A stretch of 45,720 nucleotides of DNA from a virus, in IMG/VR virus record IMGVR_UViG_3300028883_000016, positions 1 to 45,720 of that record; one strand, written 5' to 3'. Each line of letters starts with the position of its first letter. The first letter of the stretch is position 1. The position numbers and the translations under genes are program-made. The notes beneath the pieces were generated by a model. The model searched no databases and was not told where the DNA came from. It saw only the letters and a program-made list of their open reading frames with translations. Positions 128-17,367 of this stretch are shown here, piece after piece.

Positions 128-1885
128 TAAATACTCCTGTGGTGCTGGTGTTTCATTATACTCACCAACTTCTTGTTGAGCTTCTGCCATACGCTTATCC
201 ATTTCAACCTTGTCATCCACAGCGGCGTAGTCAGATATAACACCCTTGTACCTATCTAACGCTAGCGTATTCTCTACAAGTGCTGCAAGCTCTACACTAC
301 TGATGTGCGGTTCGATCTTAGCCCACAGACCAGTGTTGGTCAAACCTGCTAGGTCTTGAATAAGAACACTCTGCTCAGCGAAGTGTCGTGCGCCAATAGG
401 CATGATCTTGCCAGAGGCTGTAAGATTCTCCTTGGAGATCTCAGAGAACGAACTAACACCAAGCTCTGTGTCTAGCGTACGAATAATCTCACCTGTATCC
501 ATCTTACGGCGAGCAAGCTCAAGCATGCTGTTAAGCAGTGGTTCAAGCAGCATCACCTCGAAGCGTGTGATCTTATCTTGGAAGATACGAGTAGAGGCAG
601 TCATTAACTGCTGCACCTCAAACTTGGTCTTCTCTCCGGGAGTACGAAAACCCATAGCTTCTCTTGGCGCGCCAGCATACTGCTCCATTCTCGATTCGAT
701 AAGTGCGATGTTGTTGTCAGCTTGGATAACACCAGCTAAGGTAGTGCCCATCTCTATAACATCACCGTCGTCACCGATATGAATCTCTGCGCCCGGAGCC
801 CACTCGAAGTCTTGCACGTCACCAATAATCTTCTTAGGTGGGTGAACAAGAAGATCCAAGGCATTAGCCTTAGAGTTCTCTAGGTGGTCAATCCTATACT
901 GCAGCCCAACAAGATTATCAAGAGGGCCCATAGCCCACAAGTTATCAGGGCGTGGACGCCAGCCTACCATATAGATCGGGGCGTGTGATAACCACGACTC
1001 CCATTCACCTTTGTACACAACGCAAGTTCTGTCCATTACCTGAATGCGTTGGTTGCGCAGGACTTCACCTGTGTCAGCATCTACGATGTCTCCCCAGTAC
1101 TCTAGGATCTCAATGGTTTGTGAACCTCTGTACCTTTCAATACTACCGTAACCAGCCTTCAACATGCTCTGGAGTTTTGGTATATCTGACGGAGAGATTT
1201 GACCCATGATAGATCGCAACTCGTTGTGCTTGGCAAGTGCCTTAGCAAAATCCCCTTCATGATCTTTGTCAGCGATACTCTGCGCCGTGCCTAGAGTGAT
1301 TACCTTGCGGATGATCTTATACGTAGAATAAAAGTCAGTAGCAGTAGGATCAAACACAATGTCGTATGGAGAGATGCGGACTGCCGCCGGGCCAACAAAG
1401 CCGGGGATTACTTCCTCGGTTGCTGGATCTACCTTAACTTCGGACACCCACTCCGGCATACTGAATGCCACGCCCCTGCAGATATAATCATACAGAAGTG
1501 CCTCAACAGTAGTACGGAAGCGCGGGTCTCGCGTCTTGGCCTGCATGTACGCCTCGATGATTCCACGAACTTCTTTTAGATCCGCGTCTCTGGTGTAACC
1601 TTCCCATCTCAACCAAGAGTTGTTTGGGAACAGCGCCGAATTATAATTGGCGTGCAGGTTATCCATGATCTGGCAGAGCTTTGGAAGAGTGGTGCTATTC
1701 ATCCACCCGCCATTAGCGTTGCTAGTTGTAGATGTGTCTGTCGCATACAGGTAGGAGTCTAACTCCTCCCACTCACTAAGCTTGCCCTGTCTCTGCTCGT
1801 CCAGAGTCTGCCACTGCTGGCCGATCTGTTCCGCGAGCTTTTCACTTGACAGCAGCTGTTCTATACGTAGCGCTATTTCACGCAT
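119..1885 (-). CDS. portal protein (head-tail connector)
   Basis: 588 aa. The product is the likely portal, the dodecameric ring at the capsid vertex through which DNA is packaged and ejected. Assignment rests on size, on position between large terminase and scaffold/capsid, and on general resemblance to podovirus portals (helix-rich N-terminus, acidic middle, long C-terminal helices, and a region near residue 400 rich in Met-Glu-Gln typical of portal crowns). I chose ATG 1885 because GGAGGAG lies 6 nt upstream; the frame stays open 51 codons further but that part lies inside the terminase gene. The start overlaps the terminase stop by 8 nt. Downstream, the GTG of the 98-aa gene overlaps its end. 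Portal function is a family inference; no catalytic residues exist to check. Confidence 0.8.
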   Translation of the reverse strand: MREIALRIEQLLSSEKLAEQIGQQWQTLDEQRQGKLSEWEELDSYLYATDTSTTSNANGGWMNSTTLPKLCQIMDNLHANYNSALFPNNSWLRWEGYTRDADLKEVRGIIEAYMQAKTRDPRFRTTVEALLYDYICRGVAFSMPEWVSEVKVDPATEEVIPGFVGPAAVRISPYDIVFDPTATDFYSTYKIIRKVITLGTAQSIADKDHEGDFAKALAKHNELRSIMGQISPSDIPKLQSMLKAGYGSIERYRGSQTIEILEYWGDIVDADTGEVLRNQRIQVMDRTCVVYKGEWESWLSHAPIYMVGWRPRPDNLWAMGPLDNLVGLQYRIDHLENSKANALDLLVHPPKKIIGDVQDFEWAPGAEIHIGDDGDVIEMGTTLAGVIQADNNIALIESRMEQYAGAPREAMGFRTPGEKTKFEVQQLMTASTRIFQDKITRFEVMLLEPLLNSMLELARRKMDTGEIIRTLDTELGVSSFSEISKENLTASGKIMPIGARHFAEQSVLIQDLAGLTNTGLWAKIEPHISSVELAALVENTLALDRYKGVISDYAAVDDKVEMDKRMAEAQQEVGEYNETPAPQEYLGE

Positions 1886-3419
1886 TGATGACTCCTCCGA
1901 ATCGTTTGTTATACACCAGCTTAGTGCGGGAAGCCACATCGCGCTTGGCTCGTGGTGCCACAGATATTTCAACGGCTGATGCAAGAGCATCCTTAATGTC
2001 GTCGTGCGCTGGTCGTGCCTGTATGATCTCTTCTTCAAGAAGGTTGGTCAGGCCGCCCTTAGCGTGACGGATAATACCATCTCTGTATCTAATTAACAGT
2101 ATGCTATCTACGCGCTCTTCTTTGGAACCCTGCTTGGCTGTTGGGTTGAAGTCGTCAATGACTAATGACTGCCCCGCCTTACGTACTCTGTCACGCAGAT
2201 CCTTAACAATAATCTTTTGTGCACCAGTAATCTCAGCACGCAGTTTCTTAAAGTTCCAGTAATCGTGACGATTCATGATATGCTCATAGTACACACTGAT
2301 ATCATCAGTCTTGAATCTATCAATGTCAAGCACGTAGATGAAGCCCTCTGGGTCTACACCAACAACTACAAGTGCCGTATAATCCGCCCGCGAACTCAGA
2401 GAGAACGCAAAGTCAATTGCAGCATATATGTTAAGAGGCGCTCCATTATGTGTCCAAGTACCATTAACTTTCTTAATACTTGCTGGCTCATAATATAGGA
2501 ATGCGTCTTTACTCATACGGCTGGATCCAACATCGTTTGGATCATTATAGTACTGAGCATGGAACTGTGTTACGTCTAGGTACTTAGCCTTGATCTTAGA
2601 AAGAACTCTATCATCGAAACCAAAGGACTTTCCATCTTCCCTAACTGTTCTGGGCCAGATGTACAATCCGTCTTCTTCAACAACTCGTTCAAACTTATCC
2701 CACACTGGCACATAGCCTATGATGTTATCCTCTTCGTCGTACTCAGGGATCTTCATCGGCAGCCACTTGCCATAAATATCTAGCGGGTGGTAGCGTGTAC
2801 CGCACGCCTTAGTAAAGCCGCCGGGGTTAAGCACAGACTCAATCTGCGACATTGCTGATTCTACTGTATGTCTACCTGTCTCAGTATAAGCGTTATCAGG
2901 AACCACTACGTCATCTGCGATAACTACGTCCGCGTGCCAACCAGTAGTGTTGGTAGTAAGACCGGCGGCGCTGACCGTATGATCTCGAACACCTTCTTCT
3001 TTACGCTTAGGGTGATCAAGTGAAAATGCCTTAGTCGCCCACTTCTCTCTCTTACCCTCTTCTGAATTAACCATCTCAGGCCAGTACTTCCTGTACTGCT
3101 TACAGGTGATCATATTCTTAATATCGTACAGCTGCTTCTCAGCAAGTTCAGATGTTGCAGAGATATACAAGATTGTAGTCTCTGGATGAGTTGTAATCCA
3201 CCACGCACACCATACAGCAATGCAATGCGACTTCATGTGTGCACGAGGTAGCAGTAGTAATTGGTCTACGTCGTACCGCTGTAACCAGCGAAACACGTCC
3301 TCATGTACCTGACCATACACGCGCATCGGATTAACCAAACACGCGAAGGTGTACAAATCATGCTCCGCAGCAGTGCGAATTATATTCTTTTGTTCTAGTG
3401 CCTCAGAGCGCCTTGACAT
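1878..3419 (-). CDS. terL: terminase large subunit (packaging ATPase/nuclease)
   Basis: 513 aa. Packages DNA into proheads with an N-terminal ATPase and a C-terminal RNase H-like nuclease. A divergent Walker A sits at residues 55-65 (LLLPRAHMKSH: the final KS is present, the usual Gly is replaced), a Walker B at 164-170 (DVVIADD), and a nuclease strand with AAIDFAF around residue 335, followed by DDIKDAL near the C-terminus as the second acidic cluster. Length fits podovirus large terminases. It follows the small terminase gene with a 6-nt gap and overlaps the portal start, so the packaging genes are translationally linked. Confident in function; the packaging type (headful or cohesive) cannot be read from the sequence. 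Confidence 0.93.
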   Translation of the reverse strand: MSRRSEALEQKNIIRTAAEHDLYTFACLVNPMRVYGQVHEDVFRWLQRYDVDQLLLLPRAHMKSHCIAVWCAWWITTHPETTILYISATSELAEKQLYDIKNMITCKQYRKYWPEMVNSEEGKREKWATKAFSLDHPKRKEEGVRDHTVSAAGLTTNTTGWHADVVIADDVVVPDNAYTETGRHTVESAMSQIESVLNPGGFTKACGTRYHPLDIYGKWLPMKIPEYDEEDNIIGYVPVWDKFERVVEEDGLYIWPRTVREDGKSFGFDDRVLSKIKAKYLDVTQFHAQYYNDPNDVGSSRMSKDAFLYYEPASIKKVNGTWTHNGAPLNIYAAIDFAFSLSSRADYTALVVVGVDPEGFIYVLDIDRFKTDDISVYYEHIMNRHDYWNFKKLRAEITGAQKIIVKDLRDRVRKAGQSLVIDDFNPTAKQGSKEERVDSILLIRYRDGIIRHAKGGLTNLLEEEIIQARPAHDDIKDALASAVEISVAPRAKRDVASRTKLVYNKRFGGVINA

Positions 3420-3425
3420 ATCACA

Positions 3426-3929
3426 TTACCTTTTAAGACCTTGAATAAGTTTCAAATCATTCGAGAACTCATTTTCAATCTCAGCTTCTTTCTTAAGCTG
3501 GCCTTGTACTTCTTCTTTGGAGGGCCTGCCCGCTTTACGCTTAGGCTTCCACCCCTCATCAGCTAAGTAACGAGCGGCAGCCATAGCACCTTTGCCGTTA
3601 GCCTTTACCTCTTCGATCTGCGCACCAATGCCTAAACTCACCAACTTGACAGCAAGTTCTTCTTGCCACCCCTGAATCATATTACGTAGCTGCTTGTTAC
3701 TACGCTGTAGTTCTAGCCAGTGCTCGAAGTTCTCAAGATAAGTAGTTGCAAATTTATAACCTGTGGGATCTTCACATGCAACGAAGAGGCGTCTGGCGGA
3801 CAAGTACGTCTTGCCGTCCTTAGTAATATCTTCTGGCTTAGTTGTGAAGATTGCATACCTTTGGTCATCAGTCAGTTCGTAGAACAAAGATTGCGTTAGA
3901 TACTTGCCATTTGCGCCTCTGTATTTCAT
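3426..3929 (-). CDS. probable terminase small subunit
   Basis: 167 aa, directly upstream of the large terminase. Small terminases bind the packaging site and load the motor. The protein is helical and charged, with a basic linker near residues 130-140 (KRKAGRPSKEEV, an AT-hook-like GRP within Arg/Lys) that could contact DNA. ATG 3929 is preceded by AAGGAAATCTT, a good ribosome site. A strong terminator for leftward transcription (3956-3987) lies just upstream, so this gene probably begins a separate late unit or depends on read-through. The call rests mostly on position and length; sequence resemblance alone is weak. Confidence 0.65.
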   Translation of the reverse strand: MKYRGANGKYLTQSLFYELTDDQRYAIFTTKPEDITKDGKTYLSARRLFVACEDPTGYKFATTYLENFEHWLELQRSNKQLRNMIQGWQEELAVKLVSLGIGAQIEEVKANGKGAMAAARYLADEGWKPKRKAGRPSKEEVQGQLKKEAEIENEFSNDLKLIQGLKR

Positions 3930-3955
3930 AAGATTTCCTTAAAAACCAATATTAC

Positions 3956-3987
3956 GAAAAAAAAGAAAAGGGGCGTAGCGCCCCTTT
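3956..3987 (-). terminator. intrinsic terminator after tailspike gene
   Basis: On the minus strand AAAGGGGCG and CGCCCCTTT form a 9-bp stem around a 3-nt loop, followed by a long T tract (TTTTCTTTTTTTTT). It sits 19 nt after the tailspike stop and before the small terminase. Confidence 0.9.
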
Positions 3988-4005
3988 AGGGCATGCGATG
4001 ACGCT

Positions 4006-6258
4006 TTAAAGCTCGTCTATAGTAGCACTCCAGTTCACATCAATTGATTCGGATACAGGAAAATTAGTTGCGTCGTCCGTGGCTATCGACGGCGTCAGCC
4101 CAGTAGCAGTAGCTGTTGCCGCAAGTGCAATACCTATACGATTTCCAACATAGCCTTTGTTAGTGCGCGACATAACTACGTTAGGATTGCGAGGATAAAT
4201 CCATTTGTACACAACTGGAGTTCCTTGAACAGAGGGAGCACTAGTCGAGGTAGTAAGCTGCTCTTGCCCAGACTGCTTTTGCATTCTGTGAGGGAAAGAA
4301 GTGTATGACGAAGCATTATGGTTAGCTAAGAACACAGTAGCAGGGCCGCCACGAGATTTAAGGTTATCAACGATAATAAAATCACTGTCAGCTGTACCAC
4401 TGTTCAGACGGGTAAACAAAACTTGCTGGTATGAGTCTACATCAATCTCTATATCTGAGACCTCTACGTTGATTTTGTGTGTCGATCCTCTGTTTTCTAC
4501 AGTCATTAACGAAGCAGTTGCACCGATATTTCTACCAAAAATACTTCCGCCTTTAACGCTAAGAGTCACATCCCCAATGGTTCTTGTGTCAATTGGAGAG
4601 CTATTTCCTCCAGCATCAATAATGCCGCGACTACCTGTAGACGGATCAATAACAGAATGGAATCTGCAGTTTATTGCGTATAACTCGCCCTCCAAAATCT
4701 CTGATGATAGTATGCACGGCCCCGCCAAAATACTTCCAATTCGGCAGTTAACATAACCATTATTTTTGCCCTGCCAAGTCGCCCCGCCGTATATCTCGCA
4801 ATTAACGTACTGGCTATCTTCGGTGTTACCATGGAAGTCGGCACAGTGTGTACCTGACGTTATGTCGTTACTAAGCGTAATATTTGAGAAGCGTAAGTCT
4901 CTGCACGGCACGGCACAGACATTGGCATCTCCGCCAGTTGTTATCGGGTGGCGGCGCGAGTAGATGTCACCACCAGTAATTCTGATAGTCTGGCTATTAG
5001 TAATAGCTATACCATAATCGTCACCGCCATACCCGCCATTAAAAATAGACGGCTCTATAATTGCACAGTTATATGAGCGCTGTACTGTTATACACGAGTT
5101 ATGTTTATGATTACTTTTGATATTCAAAAGCAGACTATCGCGGCAGAATTCCAAGTCTATTAAGCTGGTTGACACGTCTCCGTTTACTGTTAAGCCACTT
5201 ATATTAACAATAATAGCGTCTAGCCTGTAGACGTTAACATCAGCAATAGCGTAGTCATCGTATAAACCACCAGAAATAAGTGCAGTAGACGCAGATGTCC
5301 TACCAACACGGCAAAACTCTCCGGCAAAATAGTTCGTGCGAAATGTAGACCAGCTCGATTCTGCAGGATTGAAAATTATGAATACGTCATTTGGCTCTAG
5401 CGTTGGCTCGGAATCAAAAACTACAATACGCTCACCTTTTACTGCGTTAGCCCCTAGATTTTGAATCTGCTGTAAACTACCGGAAAACTTAGTCCACCAT
5501 CCTCCAGAAAAGACAGGAGAGGTGCAGTCAATAATAACACCGGGCACAGAGGTTATATTTATGCTTGCGCTGTGCGTAGAGCTTGAAAGGAATTTATAAA
5601 CTCCTGGTACAGAGAAGTGTACGTGTGCTGGAGATGTATTTAAAAGCGCCTGCCAGGCATCTGAATTGTCTGCTGATGATGGCAAAACCCCAAAAGTAGC
5701 GGGGGATACTGTGCCAGAGATAACAGCTTTAGCCTGAAGACCTAAACTTATTAGATCAATAAAAGACCCACCGTCGTCGGTACCTGTTCCGGCAGGAACT
5801 ATTTCGTATACGTTACCACCTCCATCTCCAGCGATAGAATAGCCAAGAGTTTCTACGGTGTCTCCAACACGTAAGTCTGATGCATCTACCAAGTACCGCG
5901 CCTCTGGATCTACACCAGACACCGCATCGAATGTTCTTGGATATGCTTTTAACTTTTCAATCTCATAACTAACAGTACCGGGGTCTCCATCATCAACGTG
6001 AGACAGCTTATCATCATCTGTTGTAAGAACACCAACTGGCACTACTGGAGTACCACCTAAATAAATAGTAGAGGCGCTCAAACGTCTTACATTATTAATG
6101 TCGTTGGAGTTCATATCCAGCTCTTGTTCTAGCTGGTTAGGCTCACCATCAATATTAAGGCGGAACAGTATATTACTATTGATCAACTCCTCAAGAGTGG
6201 AGAAGTTATTATCCAGTCGGGAATCCCCAAAGGATTTAAATAAACTAGCTTTGGACAT
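4006..6258 (-). CDS. tailspike / tail fibre protein with beta-helix body
   Basis: 750 aa. Likely receptor-binding tailspike. The N-terminal ~130 residues (LDNNFSTLEELI, then MNSNDINNVRRL) look like the particle-binding region of phage fibres. From about residue 190 the protein becomes rich in short repeats of Asn, Gly, Ile and Val (for example SINITSVPGVIIDC, IVNISGLTVNGD, LRFSNITLSND), the look of a right-handed parallel beta-helix as in polysaccharide-degrading spikes. The C-terminus (after ~680) is probably a separate trimerisation or binding domain. ATG 6258 follows GAGGTGCATC. The gene is the last in the tRNA-led unit and ends at a strong terminator. Whether it has lyase or hydrolase activity cannot be told. 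Confidence 0.8.
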   Translation of the reverse strand: MSKASLFKSFGDSRLDNNFSTLEELINSNILFRLNIDGEPNQLEQELDMNSNDINNVRRLSASTIYLGGTPVVPVGVLTTDDDKLSHVDDGDPGTVSYEIEKLKAYPRTFDAVSGVDPEARYLVDASDLRVGDTVETLGYSIAGDGGGNVYEIVPAGTGTDDGGSFIDLISLGLQAKAVISGTVSPATFGVLPSSADNSDAWQALLNTSPAHVHFSVPGVYKFLSSSTHSASINITSVPGVIIDCTSPVFSGGWWTKFSGSLQQIQNLGANAVKGERIVVFDSEPTLEPNDVFIIFNPAESSWSTFRTNYFAGEFCRVGRTSASTALISGGLYDDYAIADVNVYRLDAIIVNISGLTVNGDVSTSLIDLEFCRDSLLLNIKSNHKHNSCITVQRSYNCAIIEPSIFNGGYGGDDYGIAITNSQTIRITGGDIYSRRHPITTGGDANVCAVPCRDLRFSNITLSNDITSGTHCADFHGNTEDSQYVNCEIYGGATWQGKNNGYVNCRIGSILAGPCILSSEILEGELYAINCRFHSVIDPSTGSRGIIDAGGNSSPIDTRTIGDVTLSVKGGSIFGRNIGATASLMTVENRGSTHKINVEVSDIEIDVDSYQQVLFTRLNSGTADSDFIIVDNLKSRGGPATVFLANHNASSYTSFPHRMQKQSGQEQLTTSTSAPSVQGTPVVYKWIYPRNPNVVMSRTNKGYVGNRIGIALAATATATGLTPSIATDDATNFPVSESIDVNWSATIDEL

Positions 6259-7226: not shown

Positions 7227-7303
7227 TGGCACCCCCAATAGGGTTCGAACCTATAACCTACGGTGTAGAAGACCGCTGTTCTATCCAATTGAACTATGGG
7301 GGT
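7227..7303 (-). tRNA. tRNA-Arg (anticodon TCT)
   Basis: 77 nt on the minus strand including an encoded CCA. Acceptor ACCCCCA pairs with TGGGGGT; the anticodon loop CTTCTAC reads TCT (AGA codons); the T loop TTCGAAC is canonical. It is last of three tandem tRNAs, 5 nt after tRNA-Trp. Confidence 0.95.
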
Positions 7304-7308
7304 ATTAC

Positions 7309-7383
7309 TGGCGGCCTAGTGAGGATTTGAACCCCAACCACAAGGTTTTGGAGACCTGTATGCTACCGTTACAACACTAAGCC
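7309..7383 (-). tRNA. tRNA-Trp (anticodon CCA)
   Basis: 75 nt on the minus strand with encoded 3' CCA. Acceptor GGCTTAG pairs with CTAGGCC (one G-U). Anticodon loop CTCCAAA gives CCA. The anticodon stem has a C-U mismatch at its base (27-43) and the D stem is weak, so it is slightly degenerate, but the T arm is intact. Confidence 0.92.
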
Positions 7384-7391
7384 ATTTTAAT

Positions 7392-7467
7392 TGGTGCATC
7401 CCCGTGGTATCGAACCACGTCCTCCAGCTTTTCAAACTGGCGCTTCTACCTAGTTAGCTTGAGATGC
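7392..7467 (-). tRNA. tRNA-Phe (anticodon GAA)
   Basis: 76 nt on the minus strand with encoded CCA. Acceptor GCATCTC pairs with GGGATGC (one U-G). Anticodon stem CCAGT/GCTGG with loop TTGAAAA gives GAA. First gene of the leftward late unit, about 100 nt downstream of the promoter element at 7574-7606. Confidence 0.95.
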
Positions 7468-9082: not shown

Positions 9083-9319
9083 ATGAGTGAAGAGCCTGTT
9101 TCCTTTTTGTATAAACTGAGTAAATGCTTGTTTATAGTTGGTTTAATACTTGCAGCACTTACTTGGGGCTTGTTGTTCGCTCGTATGTTTAGCGCGGACA
9201 TAGCAAACGCTGTTAATATTAGCGTCGTTACAGGTGTGGGAGTGGTTGCTACAGCACTGCCTGTTGTTGGTGCGTACCTATTCCTGCTGTTTGATAACTC
9301 TTGTGAGGATCATAAATGA
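9083..9319 (+). CDS. small membrane protein (two TM helices)
   Basis: 78 aa. Residues ~14-33 (CLFIVGLILAALTWGLLFA) and ~46-70 form two hydrophobic helices with a short charged tail (SCEDHK). I chose ATG 9083 (MSEEPV); an in-frame GTG three codons upstream is also possible. Its leader AGGGGTGCTGATT is repeated exactly before the gene at 9502. Early phage membrane proteins often alter host envelope functions or exclude other phages, but nothing here proves that. Confidence 0.65.
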   Translation: MSEEPVSFLYKLSKCLFIVGLILAALTWGLLFARMFSADIANAVNISVVTGVGVVATALPVVGAYLFLLFDNSCEDHK

Positions 9320-9447
9320 GTAGGGCGCTGGCGTGTGTTGGTTTTTCGTGCATGGTGGTTGCCTACCATGTAGGTAGCCGTGAACTGGGAATGCTTGGTG
9401 GTCTGTCCTGTATTCTTGCTGGTATTGCTGGCCGTTCGGGGTACTAA
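9316..9447 (+). CDS. tiny membrane-like protein
   Basis: 43 aa, starting at an ATG that overlaps the previous stop (ATGA). It is rich in Gly, Ala, Cys and Leu (MLGGLSCILAGIAG), giving one or two weak hydrophobic segments. Coupling by overlap and lack of interruption support it being real; no function is evident. Confidence 0.5.
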   Translation: MSRALACVGFSCMVVAYHVGSRELGMLGGLSCILAGIAGRSGY

Positions 9448-9501
9448 GTGTAAGACCAAGTGCATTGTTAAATCTTTTGTATTCACTAAGGGGTGCTGAT
9501 T

Positions 9502-9690
9502 ATGTGTATGAACTGCAATCATTCTTGGACTAAGCAATCAGAGTTTGTTTCTGAGACTGGGGTGGAACTGCTATACAGGACTAAGTGCGCGATACCCAGT
9601 AAAGATACGTCTCTACTAAGGGCAAAACATATAGTGGTATTAACATGCGACCGCTGCGGCGAAATTGTTAAGCTAGTGACTGAACTATAG
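9502..9690 (+). CDS. small zinc-ribbon-like protein
   Basis: 62 aa with CMNC near the N-terminus (residues 2-5) and CDRC near residues 49-52, a CxxC...CxxC pair typical of a zinc ribbon. A further Cys lies at position 29. The ATG follows the sequence AGGGGTGCTGATT also seen at 9070-9082. Such small zinc proteins in early regions may bind nucleic acid or a host enzyme. Followed directly by a hairpin. Confidence 0.65.
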   Translation: MCMNCNHSWTKQSEFVSETGVELLYRTKCAIPSKDTSLLRAKHIVVLTCDRCGEIVKLVTEL

Positions 9691-9711
9691 GGCGCAAGCG
9701 CGCCCCTATTG
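9690..9711 (+). terminator. hairpin after zinc-ribbon gene, weak terminator
   Basis: GGGCGC-AAGC-GCGCCC extended by ATA/TAT forms a stable stem directly after the stop codon. The following bases (TTGCTTATC) are only moderately T-rich. Confidence 0.5.
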
Positions 9712-9778
9712 CTTATCATCATGCCTATTAACATAGTGGGCATGCCTATAAGTAATTGAAACTAAAGAGGTATTCGTC

Positions 9779-10288
9779 ATGCAAACGTATGATAAAAAAC
9801 AATTGGCTGCCATTAAAACCAGTGTCAAACGTGCTGGCGCTACCGTGGCAGAGAAGTTACAAACTGCTATCGAGATGGGTTTGTCATTTTACCGTGACCA
9901 CGGCAATGCTCAAGTGCTAACTGAGGTTGTGGAACTGGCTGTGTCTGCTCGTTCTGTTAATGCTGATGCAGTAAAAACTTATATCGGCAAACATGCAAAC
10001 GTGCGCTGGGTTGTGTCCAAAGAAAAGGGCAAGCGCTTTAAGCAGATTGGCTCAACCGCAGAGGTTACAGAGCCTGAGAAACCATGGTACGAGTTTACCA
10101 ATCAGTCGCAGGTCAAAGCTGATCTTGATCCTTGGGCTGTGCTGGCAGCAGCTAAGCACCGCCTTACTAAGGCAATGTCACAGGGCAAGGTATCTAATAA
10201 AGAAGATGCTGTCTCTGTTGTGGCCGCTCTTGGTACGCTTCTTGAAGGTCATGCTGATCCCGCCGCTACTGCTACGGGTCAGTCGTAA
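9779..10288 (+). CDS. hypothetical early protein, 169 aa
   Basis: 169 aa, no family that I can name. N-terminal half is helical (QLAAIKTSVKRAGATVAEKLQTAIEMGLSF starts residue 8, shown here in part), the middle carries a basic Lys-rich patch (SKEKGKRFK), then helical segments around Trp/Ala (DPWAVLAAAKHRL). No hydrophobic segment, so cytoplasmic. AAAGAGGTATTCGTC precedes ATG 9779. It is the longest gene of the first early cluster and is followed at once by a terminator, so it may be strongly expressed alone with its upstream genes. Confidence 0.7.
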   Translation: MQTYDKKQLAAIKTSVKRAGATVAEKLQTAIEMGLSFYRDHGNAQVLTEVVELAVSARSVNADAVKTYIGKHANVRWVVSKEKGKRFKQIGSTAEVTEPEKPWYEFTNQSQVKADLDPWAVLAAAKHRLTKAMSQGKVSNKEDAVSVVAALGTLLEGHADPAATATGQS

Positions 10289-11237: not shown

Positions 11238-11804
11238 ATGAAGTTCGCTCATATAGAATCTGGTGTGGAAGTAGGTGTTGACCATGCCGTTGCTCAGAGT
11301 TCTGGATTGACAGTAAAGTGCACCTATATGTATGCACTATCCAGTGAGGCTGCAAATGGAGCAAGTAAGACGCTTGAGCTTTCAGGTATGTTAGTGCGCT
11401 CTGATCCTGTGTGGTGGTTTACTGTTATTCGTGATGAAGACGGTGCTCCAATATTCAGCTTTCAGGTATCTCCCGGAAGCATGGGATGCTGTGGTGTGTA
11501 CTCAGTGGGCAAGCCTAGTCTCGTAGTAAACTCACGTGCTGTAGACCCAGAAGTAACTGAAGCCGCAGTCAACATAGGAATTTCAGCAGCACTGCGCCAC
11601 TTGAGTATATCAGCGCTGGTACAAGCAGACCACGAACGCTGGACTCCAGTACTGGGGCGCTGGAAAGGAGCTGTGATTAATATGCCAATGGCCGTGGTCA
11701 ATATGAACAGCAGAAATCCCATCAATATCTTTGCTTTTGTTCGCAAGGGATGTGATATTGTTCCTAATACACGCTACAAGGAGTATAAGGGTGGTACGTC
11801 TTAA
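11238..11804 (+). CDS. CCG-motif paralog A
   Basis: 188 aa; family not recognised. It aligns by eye with the proteins at 12624-13208 and 13205-13675: a GCCGVYSVGKPSL block near residue 80, then an EAAVNIGI helix, then ISALVQADH, and near the end a segment ending in NIFAFV and a Tyr-rich tail. It is the most divergent of the three. The frame is open further upstream but ATG 11238 directly follows the previous stop. Next to a gamma-glutamylcyclotransferase and ligase genes, it could be a substrate or partner of that pathway; this is inference. The conserved adjacent Cys pair suggests metal binding or a reactive thiol. Confidence 0.65.
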   Translation: MKFAHIESGVEVGVDHAVAQSSGLTVKCTYMYALSSEAANGASKTLELSGMLVRSDPVWWFTVIRDEDGAPIFSFQVSPGSMGCCGVYSVGKPSLVVNSRAVDPEVTEAAVNIGISAALRHLSISALVQADHERWTPVLGRWKGAVINMPMAVVNMNSRNPINIFAFVRKGCDIVPNTRYKEYKGGTS

Positions 11805-11940
11805 AGTAGTGCGCTCACCAAGTAAAGTTTATTGGTGGGTGGTACAAGAGGATGACCCCACGCACCCCATCGTTGTGTGCTCTCGTAAATGGGAAGCCCA
11901 ACAGGAGCGTGATCAATTAACTAAAAGTCTGGAGCTTTAA
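11791..11940 (+). CDS. small hypothetical protein, GTG start
   Basis: 49 aa. The GTG at 11791 lies 7 nt after AAGGAG, inside the end of the preceding gene (14-nt overlap). The sequence has aromatic beta-like character (SKVYWWVVQEDD) and a charged helical tail. The good ribosome site and tight spacing to the next gene (1 nt) support it. Confidence 0.5.
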   Translation: MVRLKVVRSPSKVYWWVVQEDDPTHPIVVCSRKWEAQQERDQLTKSLEL

Positions 11941-11941
11941 T

Positions 11942-12160
11942 ATGAAGAAAGGTCAACGTGTTAAGAGTCTTACTGGTAAGACAAAAGGTATGGTTGGTGT
12001 AGCGTCCCAGTGCATTGGTGCTACTGGTAGCGTAGTGCGGGTGGCAGTAACCTTTAGCTATGGCATTGGCAAGCGCACCTACTGGTTCAACCCTGAGAAC
12101 TTGCGGGTACTTAAAGATGGCAAAGCTAACAGCCCTTATGCTGGGGGTACTGCTACTTAG
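11942..12160 (+). CDS. small basic SH3/KOW-like protein
   Basis: 72 aa. The beginning (KKGQRVKSLTGKTKGMVG) and the later beta strands (GSVVRVAVTF; TYWFNPENLRVL) resemble a small SH3-type barrel such as KOW domains, which often bind RNA or transcription complexes. This is a resemblance by pattern only. Its last 44 nt overlap the lipoprotein gene in another frame. Confidence 0.6.
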   Translation: MKKGQRVKSLTGKTKGMVGVASQCIGATGSVVRVAVTFSYGIGKRTYWFNPENLRVLKDGKANSPYAGGTAT

Positions 12161-12239
12161 TGGATGCGCCAGCGCTGTAATCCAACCGGTGGGGCAGTCA
12201 CCTTACTGCCCTGTTGAATATAAATACTGTGGTATATAG
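12117..12239 (+). CDS. 40-aa lipoprotein, overlapping gene
   Basis: 40 aa. MAKLTALMLGVLLLSGC is a complete lipoprotein signal: Lys near the start, hydrophobic core, lipobox LSGC with the lipidated Cys at residue 17. The mature part is only 24 residues with two more Cys. It starts inside the preceding gene (44-nt overlap, different frame) and ends 8 nt before the cyclotransferase gene. A later in-frame ATG (12138) would lose the charged N-terminus. Size and form resemble small phage lipoproteins such as Rz1 spanins or T5 Llp; its early-strand location far from the endolysin favours a surface role over lysis. Confidence 0.6.
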   Translation: MAKLTALMLGVLLLSGCASAVIQPVGQSPYCPVEYKYCGI

Positions 12240-12247
12240 GTAACACA

Positions 12248-12634
12248 ATGAAAGATACAGATCTATTTGCTGTGTACGGAAGTCTTCGTAATGGCTTCGG
12301 GAATCATGGCATTATCGCACAGTTCAGCCCTGAACTAGTTTCTGTAGAGGCTTTGCATGGGTGGAAAATGGTTTCTATGGGGCCTTTCCCTGCCATTTAT
12401 AAGTCTAATGATCAGGAAGACTATGTGGTTGTTGAGGTGTACTCAGTACCAGCTGAGCTACACTCTCAAGCAGCGCAGTCTCTTGACTGGTTGGAGGGGT
12501 TCCCCGACTTCTATGACCGTGAGCTGGTAGACACAGACCACGGCAAGGCGTGGGTGTACTTCCGTGAAGAGCACGAGGTGCGTGGTCTTACTCCTGTTGA
12601 GTCCGGCGATTGGGTGGAATATTATGGTGCCTAA
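12248..12634 (+). CDS. gamma-glutamylcyclotransferase-like protein (GGCT/AIG2 fold)
   Basis: 128 aa. GGCT-fold enzymes release 5-oxoproline from gamma-glutamyl amines and peptides. The substrate-binding loop VYGSLR is at residues 9-14, PAIY at 48-51, and LDWLEGFPDFYDR at 79-91 carries the probable catalytic Glu (E83) in the place expected for this family. Length is usual. It is embedded between the CCG paralogs, 1 kb before the amidoligases, as in other phage and bacterial amide-ligation clusters, where it may edit or release gamma-glutamyl linkages. Fold is secure; substrate is unknown. Confidence 0.88.
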   Translation: MKDTDLFAVYGSLRNGFGNHGIIAQFSPELVSVEALHGWKMVSMGPFPAIYKSNDQEDYVVVEVYSVPAELHSQAAQSLDWLEGFPDFYDRELVDTDHGKAWVYFREEHEVRGLTPVESGDWVEYYGA

Positions 12635-13208
12635 ACTTATTGGTACAGAGACTGACGGCAGACAAGTGCGGTCAGTAACTACAACCAGAACTTATTCTAT
12701 TGGAGATAAGTTTGTGTTGGTTGAGGTGGAGCGTCCAAATGGCCGCACAGATATTACACTGGCGTACATCTCTAAGGGAAAGCCGCCTCTGGATGTTGCT
12801 ACAATTACGGTCACGAACTGCTTTTCTTGCTGTGGTGCTTTCGCAGTGTCTAGCCCGTGGCTGGCTAACCAGCGCGTATTAAATACAGCGAACCTTGATG
12901 TTAAGGAGGTGGTAAACACTATTATTAAAGGTGCCTTTGATGTGTACGACATCACTTACATGGTGCAGGTTGACCGCATTGGTCACAAGCTCAGCACGGT
13001 GGAGGGGGCGGTTGCTGAGAGAGGGCGGTGGGGAATTTTCGTAGACAACTACGATGGAACCATTACTCAGTTCCGCAACAGTCACAGAAATGTAGTGCCT
13101 AACCACTCGTCGGTACTTACTGGCATCGCGTTCGTAAATGATAAGGCTATGGTTGGTGGCACTTACCGTAACTATACTGGATCTTACAAAAAAGGTACAC
13201 TACAATGA
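12624..13208 (+). CDS. CCG-motif paralog B
   Basis: 194 aa. It shares with the next gene FSCCGA, AVS-PWLANQR, EVVN and MVQVDR, and even 17 identical bases coding for the WLANQ region. N-terminal ~65 residues are unlike the other paralogs (beta-rich, Arg/Thr/Val). ATG 12624 overlaps the cyclotransferase end by 11 nt after a GGTGGA site; the longer frame upstream is not needed. No transmembrane segment. Function unknown; close physical coupling to cyclotransferase and ligase suggests shared work. Confidence 0.7.
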   Translation: MVPKLIGTETDGRQVRSVTTTRTYSIGDKFVLVEVERPNGRTDITLAYISKGKPPLDVATITVTNCFSCCGAFAVSSPWLANQRVLNTANLDVKEVVNTIIKGAFDVYDITYMVQVDRIGHKLSTVEGAVAERGRWGIFVDNYDGTITQFRNSHRNVVPNHSSVLTGIAFVNDKAMVGGTYRNYTGSYKKGTLQ

Positions 13209-13675
13209 CAGTTAAATTTATCATTAAAGGCGCACTTCCTGGGAGATATGAACTGTTTGCTAATGAAACGCTCGTACTATGTATGAACGTGGCGTCAGCA
13301 TTCAGCTGCTGTGGCGCGCTCGCCGTGTCTGACCCTTGGCTGGCTAACCAGCGGGCTCTTGAGCCTATCGGATTAACCCAATCCGAAGTAGTAAACAGTG
13401 GCATACAACAACTGCTCCGTCACTTCGGTGTGTCTGCTTTGGTGCAGGTTGATCGTCTTTGTTGTTTGGGAGTGAAGAATGATTTCCGCATTGGATCAGA
13501 GCCCGGCCCATGGTCTGACATTGTAAGCCTGTGGGACGGCAAGTTTACTGAAGGTGATCTTCAGTTCCAGAATGTTAGCGAGGGAGACACTGCCCTTTCT
13601 ATGTTTGCATTCATTGATGAGTATGCTATCACTGAAGATAGCAGTCAACACCCTTATAAAGTAACTAAACAGTAG
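13205..13675 (+). CDS. CCG-motif paralog C
   Basis: 156 aa, starting at an ATGA overlap with paralog B. FSCCGALAVSDPWLANQRAL is at residues ~34-53, then SEVVN, FGVSALVQVDRLCC, a GPW segment, and near the end SMFAFIDEY. Compared with B it lacks the extra N-terminal part, so the shared core is about 130 residues starting just before the CC pair. The CCG and WLANQ blocks are the family signature. It precedes the first amidoligase by 12 nt. Confidence 0.7.
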   Translation: MTVKFIIKGALPGRYELFANETLVLCMNVASAFSCCGALAVSDPWLANQRALEPIGLTQSEVVNSGIQQLLRHFGVSALVQVDRLCCLGVKNDFRIGSEPGPWSDIVSLWDGKFTEGDLQFQNVSEGDTALSMFAFIDEYAITEDSSQHPYKVTKQ

Positions 13676-13687
13676 TAGGTGACTATC

Positions 13688-14473
13688 ATGTCTGACAAAA
13701 TTAAACTTGTATCTCTAGGTGCAGACCCTGAACTATTCCTTCGTGATGTAGCAACAGGTGAATTTGTGCCAGCGACTGGCCTTCTTGGTGGCAGTAAGGA
13801 CTCTCCTCGCCCGGTTAATAAAGGCGCTGTTCAAGAAGATAATGTACTCGCTGAGTTTAATATCGTTCCGGCCACAGATGCTCGCGCCTTCGTTGATAAC
13901 ATCATGACTGTACGTGAAGAGCTGAATAATATGGTTCGTCCGTATGATCTTACTACCTTCGTAACGTCCAGTCATATCTTTACTCACGATGCTCTGAAAG
14001 AGGCTGGCCCGATGGCGTTCGAGTTTGGCTGCGACCCAGACTTCAACGCATGGCTTGGTGGTGAGGTTAATCCTAAACCTGCATCCACCACTGACCTACG
14101 TACTGCCGGAGGTCACGTACACTTCGGCCTCGAAGGTGCCGACCTCGACATTAATCGTTTCATCCGTGTATGTGATGCTACACTGGGTGTTGTTGATGTA
14201 CTTACAGACCCCGAAGGTGCTGCACGGCGCGCCCTGTATGGCTGCGCTGGGGCGTATCGTCCAAAGCCATACGGTGTTGAGTACAGAACGCTGAGTAATG
14301 CGTGGCTGTCTGACTCGGATGCCATTGATCGTACATACCGCCTGTCGGAATACGCAGTGTCATTGTACAACTCCGGCTTTGATCCTAAACCTTCCATCCG
14401 TCAAGTAATTAATAGTGGTGATCGACAAGCGGCGCACCACGTGTACGCTGGACTACATCTTGGGAGAGTATAA
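13688..14473 (+). CDS. COOH-NH2 ligase type 2 (GS-like amidoligase)
   Basis: 261 aa. Members of this glutamine-synthetase-fold family are predicted to join a carboxylate to an amine using ATP. Visible family marks: LGADPELF (residues 10-17), QEDNVLAEFN (49-58), GGHVHFG (141-147) and VEYRTLSNAWL (197-207); the Glu, Asp and His in these blocks correspond to metal and ATP ligands. ATG 13688 follows TAGGTGACTATC; GTG 13679 in frame is an alternative. It leads the ligase genes, 2 nt before the 201-aa gene. Phages related to phiEco32 carry similar proteins. Substrates are not known. Confidence 0.88.
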   Translation: MSDKIKLVSLGADPELFLRDVATGEFVPATGLLGGSKDSPRPVNKGAVQEDNVLAEFNIVPATDARAFVDNIMTVREELNNMVRPYDLTTFVTSSHIFTHDALKEAGPMAFEFGCDPDFNAWLGGEVNPKPASTTDLRTAGGHVHFGLEGADLDINRFIRVCDATLGVVDVLTDPEGAARRALYGCAGAYRPKPYGVEYRTLSNAWLSDSDAIDRTYRLSEYAVSLYNSGFDPKPSIRQVINSGDRQAAHHVYAGLHLGRV

Positions 14474-14475
14474 CA

Positions 14476-15081
14476 ATGAAGCTAGTACCACTGGCTGGGT
14501 TTGAAACCCTACCCACTGCTCATGCTTGGGTAAATTACTTTGACTATCGTGTCTTGGGTGCACTAATGGTACTTGACGAGGACAAGGTAGTTATGGTAGA
14601 TGCTGTAGAACGGGACGGTGCGCGTATAGTAGTGACGGTCTTGGAACTAACTGGCCGCCGCGTAACTATCCCGCCAGAAGAACTGCACGAACGCCTAATG
14701 TTCTGGAAGCCTGAGCATGGGTACTACAACTCCCCAGCTGGCTTGTTAAAAGTGGAGGCGACTGATGTGGGGCGGGGGTATCAGCAGGGAATCCGCACTA
14801 ATTACCTACGTATCAGAGGAGTTGAGACTCAAATAGAATTGCGCGAGTCTTTCCGTAGCTTGTGTCAAATGGTATTTGATAACATCTCCACGTTTAGCAC
14901 TATCACTGAGGCACGAGAGTCTGACAACTTTGTGGCGATCACCCGTCACATTATAGGCAATGCTCGCGGTGCTATTGTTATGGGCGAGCGATCTATTACT
15001 AACTGGGATGCGGCCATGGCCGACGAGGATATTATTACTGACATCGAATTTGAAAGGGGGGATATTCCATGCCTAGTTTGA
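14476..15081 (+). CDS. unknown protein between the two amidoligases
   Basis: 201 aa, not recognised. The N-terminal half is beta-rich (ALMVLDEDKVVMVDAVERD), the C-terminal half mixed, ending in an acidic stretch (ADEDIITDIEFERGD) and CLV. No signal or membrane segment. It begins 2 nt after the first ligase and overlaps the second by 13 nt, so its translation is tied to both. Position makes it a candidate scaffold, carrier or acceptor protein for the ligases, though nothing in its sequence shows this. Confidence 0.65.
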   Translation: MKLVPLAGFETLPTAHAWVNYFDYRVLGALMVLDEDKVVMVDAVERDGARIVVTVLELTGRRVTIPPEELHERLMFWKPEHGYYNSPAGLLKVEATDVGRGYQQGIRTNYLRIRGVETQIELRESFRSLCQMVFDNISTFSTITEARESDNFVAITRHIIGNARGAIVMGERSITNWDAAMADEDIITDIEFERGDIPCLV

Positions 15082-16034
15082 TTGGTGACTTCGTAAATAT
15101 GCGCCACCCAGACCACAAAAATGTCGAGTCAACTGACAGCTTAGTGAGTGACGCTTACGTAGGTGTTGAAGTTGAGCTGGAGAATGCGTCTTTGCGCAGT
15201 GGCATCAGAATGTGGGAGATGCACGAAGAGGGTAGCTTAAAGAACGACGGGCGCGAGTGGGTATTCGCTCGCCCTTATGCAGGTGAGGATGTGGTAGCAG
15301 CAGTCAGCAACCTTGTCAGTGCATACGAAGGTAAGCAGGTTGTGTGCGGCCCGGATGGGTCAGTGCATGTGCATGTTGACGTGACTGATCTAACTATGGA
15401 TCAGCTGTTCCGTATGCTCAATCTGAGCTTTATGTTCGAGCCCCTGCTGTTCGATTGGATGAGTCCTGAACGAGGAACCAACCAATTTTGTCAGAAGCTT
15501 GGCAATAATTCACGGCGAGCCAGTTCAATTTGCAATGCTATTGCTACTGGTACTACTACTGGCGATGTTAACGGCGCAGTGGTAGCCCTGAGTAATCAAT
15601 CGTACAAGTATTCCGCCACCAATACATCACGTCTTCGTGATCTAGGAACGGTAGAGTACAGATTCCACCGCTCCTGCTGCGATTACGACGGGCTTATTCG
15701 CTTGATCAACGCTGTGTGTTGCCTGAAAGAAGCCGCTCGTGATACCCGCTGGGATGCAATCTCCCCTCACCGTGATGTTAAAGGGCGCACAGCAGCCTCA
15801 GTAATCATGCAGGTGTTTGGCAGTGTGATGGACGTAGAAGATTGCTCTATGTTTAAGGACGCTTTAGAGGAGGGCATTCACACCATCCGACAACTGAGTC
15901 TTCGTACCCGACGGCGCATTGATCGTCGTGAACAGGCGGGGTTTGTTGATCATCCACCTCGCCAAGGCACCACTGCACCACCGCGTCCTACGTGGGATGC
16001 TAATCCAGCAGATCTTTTCCAACCAGTAGTTTAA
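15069..16034 (+). CDS. amidoligase (Amidoligase_2 family, GS-like fold)
   Basis: 321 aa. Second, distinct GS-fold ligase. Motifs: GVEVELE (residues 32-38), EGSLKNDGREWVF (54-66), HVHVDV (100-105), and LGTVEYRFH (192-200), which match the metal- and ATP-binding strands of the family. The C-terminal ~45 residues are Arg- and Pro-rich and probably disordered. It overlaps the 201-aa gene by 13 nt. Together with the first ligase, the amidotransferase and ATP-grasp protein it forms a predicted peptide- or amide-forming pathway. Family call is firm, reaction inferred. Confidence 0.85.
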   Translation: MPSLIGDFVNMRHPDHKNVESTDSLVSDAYVGVEVELENASLRSGIRMWEMHEEGSLKNDGREWVFARPYAGEDVVAAVSNLVSAYEGKQVVCGPDGSVHVHVDVTDLTMDQLFRMLNLSFMFEPLLFDWMSPERGTNQFCQKLGNNSRRASSICNAIATGTTTGDVNGAVVALSNQSYKYSATNTSRLRDLGTVEYRFHRSCCDYDGLIRLINAVCCLKEAARDTRWDAISPHRDVKGRTAASVIMQVFGSVMDVEDCSMFKDALEEGIHTIRQLSLRTRRRIDRREQAGFVDHPPRQGTTAPPRPTWDANPADLFQPVV

Positions 16035-16047
16035 AGGTAAATTAATT

Positions 16048-17367
16048 ATGTGTGGTATTGTAGGCGTAATTGGAGCACTGTCTGCTCCTAGAATCAAGCT
16101 GTTTAAGCACATGCTAGTTGCTGATGTAGTCCGTGGAAAGCACTCTACAGGTGTGTTTTCCATTGACAAGAAGGGCGGCATGTCTTATGTTAAGCGCGCA
16201 GTTAACGGCGGTCGCTTTGTGATGGATGATAATATCGACGAACTCCCTAAAGGTTGGGAGTCTAACTCTCGCTGTATCATTGGTCACAACCGTGCGGCTA
16301 CCGTAGGATCAGTTACAACAGACAACGCACACCCATTCATGTTTAATAATGTGGTTGGTGTGCATAATGGTACTCTGGATTCTGAGGCGGGGCTTGTGTC
16401 TACTCTCGCTGACGGTACTAAGATATCTGTGGACTCGCAGAAGATCTACGCAACAATGGATGTGACAAAGCCTGAAGACATTCCTACCCTGTTAGAATCT
16501 CTGGAAGGGGCGTACACCCTCGTGTGGAGTGATACACGGACAGGCCGTATTCACATGGCGAGAAACCGAGAGCGTCCACTGTCATTGGGTCACACCCCAA
16601 GCAGTATTATGCTGGCATCTGAGATGGGCATGCTTACGTGGCTAGTAGAAAAGTCACTGGGCGAGCATGTTAAGCCTGAGTATGAGTCTCTTCCAGTAGG
16701 TGAGATCTGGTCGTTCGATCCTACTGCTGACAACCCCTACTCCACTCTTGAAATTACCAAATTCAAGCCAGCAGCTCCCTTCATTACGTACAAGAGCCTA
16801 TACGGAGGCAATGCGTACTCATCAAAAAAGGACAGTACGACTACGGGTTCGGGTGGGACTGGTAATGTCGTAAAACACGGTCGTGCACTCACTCACCCAC
16901 TTACAGCAGTTGATAAGTTCGTACTGACAGACTTCACATCCAAGTTGTCAGACTATAAAGAGTGCCCGTGGTTATATGACAAAGGCGAATGTAATGAATC
17001 CTATGGTAATCCACTGGACTACGCCCATCGTTACTCGGCTGAGCAGTTAAACAGCCTGCCAGTAGTGTCTATCCTACACCCAATAGCTGCGGAGCTTTCC
17101 AGTCCTACTGGTCTGACGTGCACGTTATTCTGTGTGGATGACGAGGGCTTTGTCTGGGCTCTGCGCTATATGCACTTAGTTAATGTGCACATAGATAAGG
17201 CGTATGTCGTAGACCTGTCCAAGTGCCATCAGAAGTCATGCTATATCATGACATCAAGCACAGGAGCACGAGGTATAAGCTGTTCCTGCGAAGTTATTAC
17301 TGGCATCTGTGATTATCAAACACTTTATGCCCCCGAAAATAAAGATGACTCTGGAGTACCAGCATGA
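16048..17367 (+). CDS. class II glutamine amidotransferase with Cys-rich C-terminal extension
   Basis: 439 aa. The Ntn-type glutaminase domain occupies residues 1 to ~230: Cys2 of MCGIVGVIG becomes the N-terminal nucleophile after Met removal; HNRAATVG (~75-82), HNGTLDS (~108-114) and DSQKIYATM (~130) are the glutamine-binding and oxyanion blocks. It hydrolyses glutamine to release ammonia. A Ser/Gly/Thr linker (~275-290) leads to an unknown domain of ~150 residues with many Cys (CPWLYDKGEC, CHQKSC, SCSC), perhaps metal-binding. No synthetase or phosphosugar isomerase domain is fused, so the acceptor partner must be another protein, likely the ligases beside it. Stop overlaps the next ATG. 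Confidence 0.9.
   Translation: MCGIVGVIGALSAPRIKLFKHMLVADVVRGKHSTGVFSIDKKGGMSYVKRAVNGGRFVMDDNIDELPKGWESNSRCIIGHNRAATVGSVTTDNAHPFMFNNVVGVHNGTLDSEAGLVSTLADGTKISVDSQKIYATMDVTKPEDIPTLLESLEGAYTLVWSDTRTGRIHMARNRERPLSLGHTPSSIMLASEMGMLTWLVEKSLGEHVKPEYESLPVGEIWSFDPTADNPYSTLEITKFKPAAPFITYKSLYGGNAYSSKKDSTTTGSGGTGNVVKHGRALTHPLTAVDKFVLTDFTSKLSDYKECPWLYDKGECNESYGNPLDYAHRYSAEQLNSLPVVSILHPIAAELSSPTGLTCTLFCVDDEGFVWALRYMHLVNVHIDKAYVVDLSKCHQKSCYIMTSSTGARGISCSCEVITGICDYQTLYAPENKDDSGVPA

Follow-up and report, generated by a model that had tools for sequence, protein, structure and literature searches.

Three diverged gene copies beside a phage amidoligase module probably represent a new variant of a known protein fold

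We have examined a window of viral DNA, namely the whole stretch of 45,720 nucleotides that makes up IMG/VR record IMGVR_UViG_3300028883_000016, in which three genes (P0001 to P0003) encode proteins that carry a CCG motif. They lie among genes for enzymes of gamma-glutamyl and amide-bond chemistry, as follows.

11238..11804, plus strand: P0001, CCG paralog 1, 188 aa; CCG codons at 11487-11495
12248..12634, plus strand: gamma-glutamyl cyclotransferase (GGCT); PF06094, E 2e-19; phrog_2520
12624..13208, plus strand: P0002, CCG paralog 2, 194 aa; CCG codons at 12828-12836; 5' end overlaps the 3' end of the GGCT gene
12858..12874, plus strand: 17-base word, copy 1, in the WLANQR block of P0002; identical to 13337-13353
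13205..13675, plus strand: P0003, CCG paralog 3, 156 aa; CCG codons at 13307-13315; ATGA overlap with P0002
13337..13353, plus strand: 17-base word, copy 2, in P0003; identical to 12858-12874
13679..14473, plus strand: COOH.NH2 ligase; PF14395; phrog_3815
14476..15081, plus strand: 201-aa protein with no assigned function, between the two ligases, in the slot of LUZ24 gp17 and its counterparts
15069..16034, plus strand: amidoligase; PF12224; phrog_7469
16048..17367, plus strand: class II glutamine amidotransferase; PF13522
17364..18173, plus strand: ATP-grasp protein, RimK-like; phrog_2599, E 5e-79; Pfam match below the cut-off

The GGCT, P0002, P0003 and COOH.NH2 ligase genes overlap or nearly touch in an operon-like arrangement. 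An earlier note, made from the sequence of the window, had placed the three paralogs beside ligases and a GGCT, and the COOH.NH2 ligase and GGCT genes do adjoin them. The 201-aa slot is filled in relatives by a protein of similar size, such as LUZ24 gp17 or NV1 gp17. Promoter-like sites occurred at chance level, terminator-like sites numbered 10 against 6.6 expected, and Rfam gave no matches. Three tRNA genes, Arg(tct), Trp(cca) and Phe(gaa), lie on the minus strand at positions 7227-7467 of the window.

P0001, P0002 and P0003 are diverged copies of one gene. In pairwise BLASTP, P0002 aligned with P0003 at 35% over 145 columns (E 1e-21) and P0001 with P0003 at 28% over 109 columns (E 4e-11), in agreement with the earlier claim of three paralogs starting at 11238, 12624 and 13205. 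P0001 and P0002 gave no direct match by this method, so that P0003 is the joint that holds the trio together; the proposal that one profile would join the three was accordingly not refuted. The 17 bases reported as identical in two of the paralogs were recovered at 12858-12874 and 13337-13353, and a 13-mer is repeated at 12961 and 13440 with the same offset of 479, so that P0002 and P0003 represent a duplication in register at the DNA level. The description of the trio as tandem holds strictly for these two genes, with their 4-base overlap; small ORFs and the GGCT gene separate P0001 from the pair. The sequence blocks that had been described as common to the trio are likewise only partly so. 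The (S/G)CCG block and the terminal (F/I)AF(V/I) block occur in all three proteins. PWLANQR and EVVN are found in P0002 and P0003, with PSLVVNSR and TEAAVN as their counterparts in P0001, and SALVQ(A/V)D is found in P0001 and P0003, with TYMVQVD in P0002.

Searches with the trio itself returned little beyond the trio. P0003, used as a query against the window's own virus record, found three places, which are the trio genes only. None of the three proteins matched a Pfam or PHROG family (P0002 reached one PHROG at E 0.33), in keeping with the suggestion that their family was not previously known. No close relatives were found among 50,697 phage records, viral contigs and genome contigs, with P0003 as a single sequence or with alignments of the trio or of P0002 and P0003, and tblastn of three members of the wider family described below found no relatives in phages. 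The single-sequence, alignment and tblastn searches came back empty because the divergence lies beyond their reach.

Relatives were instead collected by gene neighbourhood. Eighty viral-contig loci around ligase homologs and 8 phage regions were assembled, and in many of these loci the ligase strand encodes proteins that have a CCG turn. An iterated profile was run over all 5318 ORFs, including those that lie under antisense ORFs (for example, the member L082_5904), with a membership cut-off of E<2e-3. This yielded 37 members. L084_3551 (E 0.0023) and L084_3070 (E 0.14) initially fell outside the cut-off, and both came inside once L084_3551 had joined the model. When contigs were left out one at a time, 32 of the 37 members were recovered at E<1e-3 and five were missed; for the LUZ24-like set, near relatives were dropped as well. 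LUZ24 gp12 scores as a member in a profile search of six proteins. Among 29 aligned proteins, two matched phrog_8299 (best E 4e-11), a PHROG without assigned function, and none had a convincing match in Pfam or NCBIfam. The trio and these relatives appear to constitute a previously undescribed phage family, for which we have coined the name CCG family.

Common to the aligned members are a strand-CCG-strand unit, then a helix and a strand, a second helix with GF or GW at its end, an N.N[TS]GN motif and a last strand. A strict version of the C-terminal pattern, N.N[ST].[NH].[ILVMT]..[aromatic], is present in 12/37 members. The second Cys of CCG is kept in 35 of 36 aligned members, the first in 30 of 36 (it is otherwise mostly Asn), and the Gly in 31 of 36. 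The adjacent Cys pair had been put forward as a metal or reactive-thiol site. A noteworthy Cys is indeed present, whereas a paired metal site is unlikely, as only the second Cys is near-invariant. The rest of the sequence is poorly kept: median identity is 16% for the CCG family against 40% for ligases of the same contigs, and the ligase was more identical than the CCG protein in all 519 contig pairs. The family thus appears, from these sequence comparisons, to evolve very fast. Multiple copies per contig are found in L091 and G055 (three each) and L084 (at least three), and several loci carry two. The L084 paralogs lie at 1588-4243 and 9172-9810 of that locus, and one of them keeps a GNAT-like RxxGxG loop.

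The fold of the family was predicted from the representative L070_5911, for which AlphaFold2, given 28 family rows with the trio excluded, returned a model of pLDDT 87.7 and pTM 0.80. The best 50 VIA rows of this model against the PDB were all GNAT acetyltransferases by title or known identity, nearly all aligned via the C-terminal part of the GNAT fold. The best Z was 7.4, a middling value; a Z below 8 can reflect a common arrangement. With Foldseek, L070_5911 had no row that reached E<=0.001, and unrelated proteins headed the list. L084_1588 matched Pfam Acetyltransf_1 over most of that model, with an E of 0.0034 that falls short of the cut-off, and by eye it has RKLGLG past the strand that follows CCG, which is the expected position of the acetyl-CoA loop. 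An R/QxxGxG/A string occurs within 75 residues of the motif in 6 of 35 members and, by eye, stands in the right place only in L084_1588. Taken together, the models indicate that the family fold is most likely GNAT-like, lacking the N-terminal elements and, in all but one member, the acetyl-CoA loop. The predicted order of elements is most likely strand, [CN]C[GTA] turn, strand, (short strand), helix, strand, helix, strand, N.N[TS]GN turn, strand. By eye, the R/QxxGxG/A loop is absent from the sequences of P0001 to P0003, and for this reason the trio is not classed as acetyltransferases.

We regard it as probable that the trio belongs to this wider family, on the element order, the GNAT rows, the ranking of window ORFs, a shuffle test and the motifs of P0001 taken together. 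An AlphaFold2 model of P0003 made from the trio only was poor (pLDDT 43, pTM 0.47). In this low-confidence model, strands flank the CCG that all three proteins have at the [CN]C[GTA] turn, and the order is strand-CCG-strand-helix-strand-helix-strand. Forty-six of its 50 best VIA rows read as acetyltransferases by title, none of these with a Z above 3.4; ICL2 stood first (Z 3.5), and two rows were phage chimallin-type proteins. The family HMM ranked P0001, P0002 and P0003 as the three best scorers among the window ORFs, at hmmsearch E values of 3-7. In hhalign, the trio and the family were joined at a probability of 3%, with the CCG columns driving the score, and this score of 19.7 exceeded that of every one of 60 column shuffles, the highest of which reached 14.7. 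At the C-terminus of P0001, VVNMNSRNPINIFAFV resembles the N.N[TS]GN...Y ending of the family; the pattern is full in P0001 and partial in P0002 and P0003. P0001 is the sole non-family ORF of the 5318 to carry both motifs, by a pattern that was drawn after P0001 had been seen. No trio-family sequence score from hmmsearch or hhalign was significant alone, and this absence, with the poor quality of the trio model, is what would be expected if the trio were a separate family that has only the CCG turn in common with the wider set. We consider that reading improbable: a model made independently of the family gave a matching element order and mostly GNAT rows, the trio supplied the best three window ORFs for the family HMM, P0001 bears the C-terminal motif, and the neighbourhood and strand of the trio match those of the family.

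The association of the family with the ligase was then measured on whole records. On the ligase side these comprised the 46 records, from among the 80 ligase loci, that have a length of at least about 35 kb, and 6 phage records, 52 in all. Records fetched by polymerase numbered 23 and 20, from two sets of 80 loci; G060 and G065, which occur both among the ligase records and among those fetched by polymerase, were each counted once. PF14395 matched no control genome, and the ligase profile A2 was therefore also used to call ligases. The ligase-bearing total came to 54 with the addition of G080 and G086, the latter with a weak ligase match (1.4e-24 against about 1e-93 elsewhere). A CCG-family match was present in 19 of the 52 ligase-bearing records and, in the second polymerase set, in one of 20, which is itself one of the 4 records there that carry a ligase. 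Overall, 20/54 ligase-bearing records matched against 0/39 ligase-free records (p=4e-6). Sixteen of the 52 records had supplied the members from which the family model was made; with the model's contigs set aside, the counts were 4/38 and 0/39 (p=0.055). Of the 88 ligase loci, 25 contain a member. Wherever a member and a ligase occur in one locus (35 members), the two are on one strand, with 22 of the members upstream of the ligase and 13 downstream. The question of whether such proteins always lie beside an amidoligase has a divided answer: no ligase-free record matched, 20 of the 54 ligase-bearing ones did, and the member in G050 is separated from the ligase by about 17 kb. Most ligase-bearing records had no detected member, and the G055 trio is near a ligase only if the contig ends join.

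These distances bear on what the neighbourhood means. Both the CCG genes and the ligase module belong to the early region, so that their proximity may be regional, and the proteins could then serve in host takeover or counter-defence with no relation to ligase chemistry. Very fast evolution is in keeping with such a role, as are members at distances of up to about 5 kb upstream or downstream of the ligase and the one at about 17 kb, and phage GNATs that modify host proteins are known (PMC7824862). We judge this explanation unlikely, given that no ligase-free record had a match. Moreover, G080, which is the only polymerase-fetched match outside the model, again has its member about 1.4 kb upstream of a same-strand ligase, and in L200, which a CCG query retrieved, a ligase follows 2.2 kb downstream of the member.

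Other proteins near the ligase were also considered. Immediately upstream of the ligase, or in its vicinity, lie one or two proteins of 270-400 aa that have C[FWY]G close to the N-terminus. Proteins of class I GATase/peptidase-like type, marked by a CRGAQ block, are often found beside the ligase of relatives, with none seen near the ligase of the window. Examples, by position in the collected loci, are as follows.

C[FWY]G proteins (N-terminal motif): L004 4295-5989; L007 4715-6565; L205 5443-7380; L008 3879-6014; L009 3082-4014
CRGAQ-block proteins (class I GATase/peptidase-like): L005 7601-8236; L011 4011-4685; L082 6266-6973; many others

Where they matched, the C[FWY]G proteins hit phrog_29805, 7973, 13063 and 13102, all PHROGs without assigned function. 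Those that precede the ligase in LUZ24, NV1, UFV-P2, ZRK32, Slicky01 and KBNP1711 resembled CCG-family relatives; the CCG-family HMM failed to join LUZ24 gp14 and gp15, and the group is not counted in the family. Several further proteins were excluded from the CCG family: L039_12134, L080, L087 and L059 are zinc-ribbon-like or otherwise unsupported CCG proteins, and L056, L075, L082_3874, L085_6369 and L039_6126 have only CCG in common with it.

On balance, we lean toward the view that the trio are CCG-family accessories of the phage amidoligase module, with a GNAT-like fold, that face the target and have been multiplied and diversified. In such a scheme, the ligases of the module (the COOH.NH2 ligase and the amidoligase, with the class II GATase, ATP-grasp and GGCT proteins) would make a peptide linkage, and the CCG proteins would face the acceptor, either as GNAT-type acyl- or aminoacyl-transferase-like enzymes or as non-catalytic specificity subunits. 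The near-invariant Cys, in its turn between two strands, would be a functional thiol, and duplication with fast divergence may have produced several acceptor or target specificities. A dosage role, which had been suggested from the repeated duplication, is poorly supported, as the copies diverge strongly and have not been kept alike; a partner that is GNAT-like, bears a Cys and has multiplied and diverged fast is better suited to facing the acceptor.

The substrate role suggested alongside dosage deserves separate weight. The CCG proteins might themselves be substrates or carriers of the amidoligases, that is, acceptors of a tag, modified at the Cys or at the N.N[TS]GN turn. The overlapping or touching GGCT, P0002, P0003 and ligase genes, the several diverged copies, the single near-invariant Cys amid little-conserved sequence and the missing GNAT acetyl-CoA loop are all consistent with this. 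A substrate that one conserved ligase recognises should nevertheless retain a conserved surface for that recognition, yet conservation is much higher in the ligases (40%) than in the family (16%), and an obligatory substrate is unsupported since most ligase-bearing records lack a detected member; we therefore hold a substrate role to be doubtful. More speculative by far is a form of the accessory role in which the Cys acts as an acyl-thioester relay: the amidoligases would load a gamma-glutamyl or peptide tag onto it, and the GNAT-like fold would pass the tag to a target amine, with one target for each paralog. We think this very improbable; if true, it would amount to a phage conjugation cascade on a small scale, in which labour is divided much as between E2 and E3.

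The ligase has a match in 317 of 50,697 phage records, including those of well-studied Pseudomonas phages. The amidoligase module is thus widespread, yet its product is conjectural in the portions of the published accounts available to us. A fast-evolving GNAT-like component with a near-invariant Cys would provide a handle on the destination of that product, and LUZ24 gp12 makes the question approachable in a laboratory phage. The models also offer a possible fold for genes annotated as 'hypothetical'. Overall, the trio probably adds a new and as yet unnamed form to a known fold, next to a module that is itself known.

With the GNAT fold, the family shares the predicted topology of L070_5911 and its best PDB rows, together with L084_1588, which has the RxxGxG loop and a weak Pfam match. 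It differs in that nearly all CCG members are without the N-terminal elements and the R/QxxGxG/A loop, and in the addition of the CCG and N.N[TS]GN turns. Fem/MurM peptide ligases have a GNAT fold, make no use of acetyl-CoA and act on peptidoglycan peptides; they have two GNAT domains and depend on aminoacyl-tRNA. Their likeness to the CCG proteins may be no closer than an analogy. A precedent comes from operons that combine GNATs with ATP-grasp ligases, in which the GNATs are suggested to cap peptides; operons that link GNATs with COOH-NH2 ligases are also known (PMC4431377). The surroundings of the trio are those of the phage amidoligase or 'peptidoglycan modification' module, which has been proposed to form unusual peptide linkages on peptidoglycan, with superinfection block or endolysin sites as the outcome; the available portions of the two accounts name no CCG or GNAT-like component (PMC11945000, PMC10580990).

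The nearest individual proteins are the uncharacterised LUZ24 gp12 and UFV-P2 ORF13 of Pseudomonas phages. A 219-aa LUZ24 protein, which was the second BFVD fold match, was taken to be gp12 by its length. As described in the accessible text of a LUZ24 study, a growth screen of 13 small early genes gave four inhibitors, with gp12 not among the four and its inclusion in the screen unstated; a two-hybrid assay in the same 2015 work found the host glutamylpolyamine synthetase SpuB as the partner of gp9 (PMC4635203). That contact is a possible hint to gamma-glutamyl chemistry in the LUZ24 phage group. Unlike the trio, gp12 and ORF13 have CCT in place of CCG, were found in one copy and lie several kb from the ligase; like the trio, they belong to the CCG family by profile, lie in the early region and accompany the same amidoligase module.
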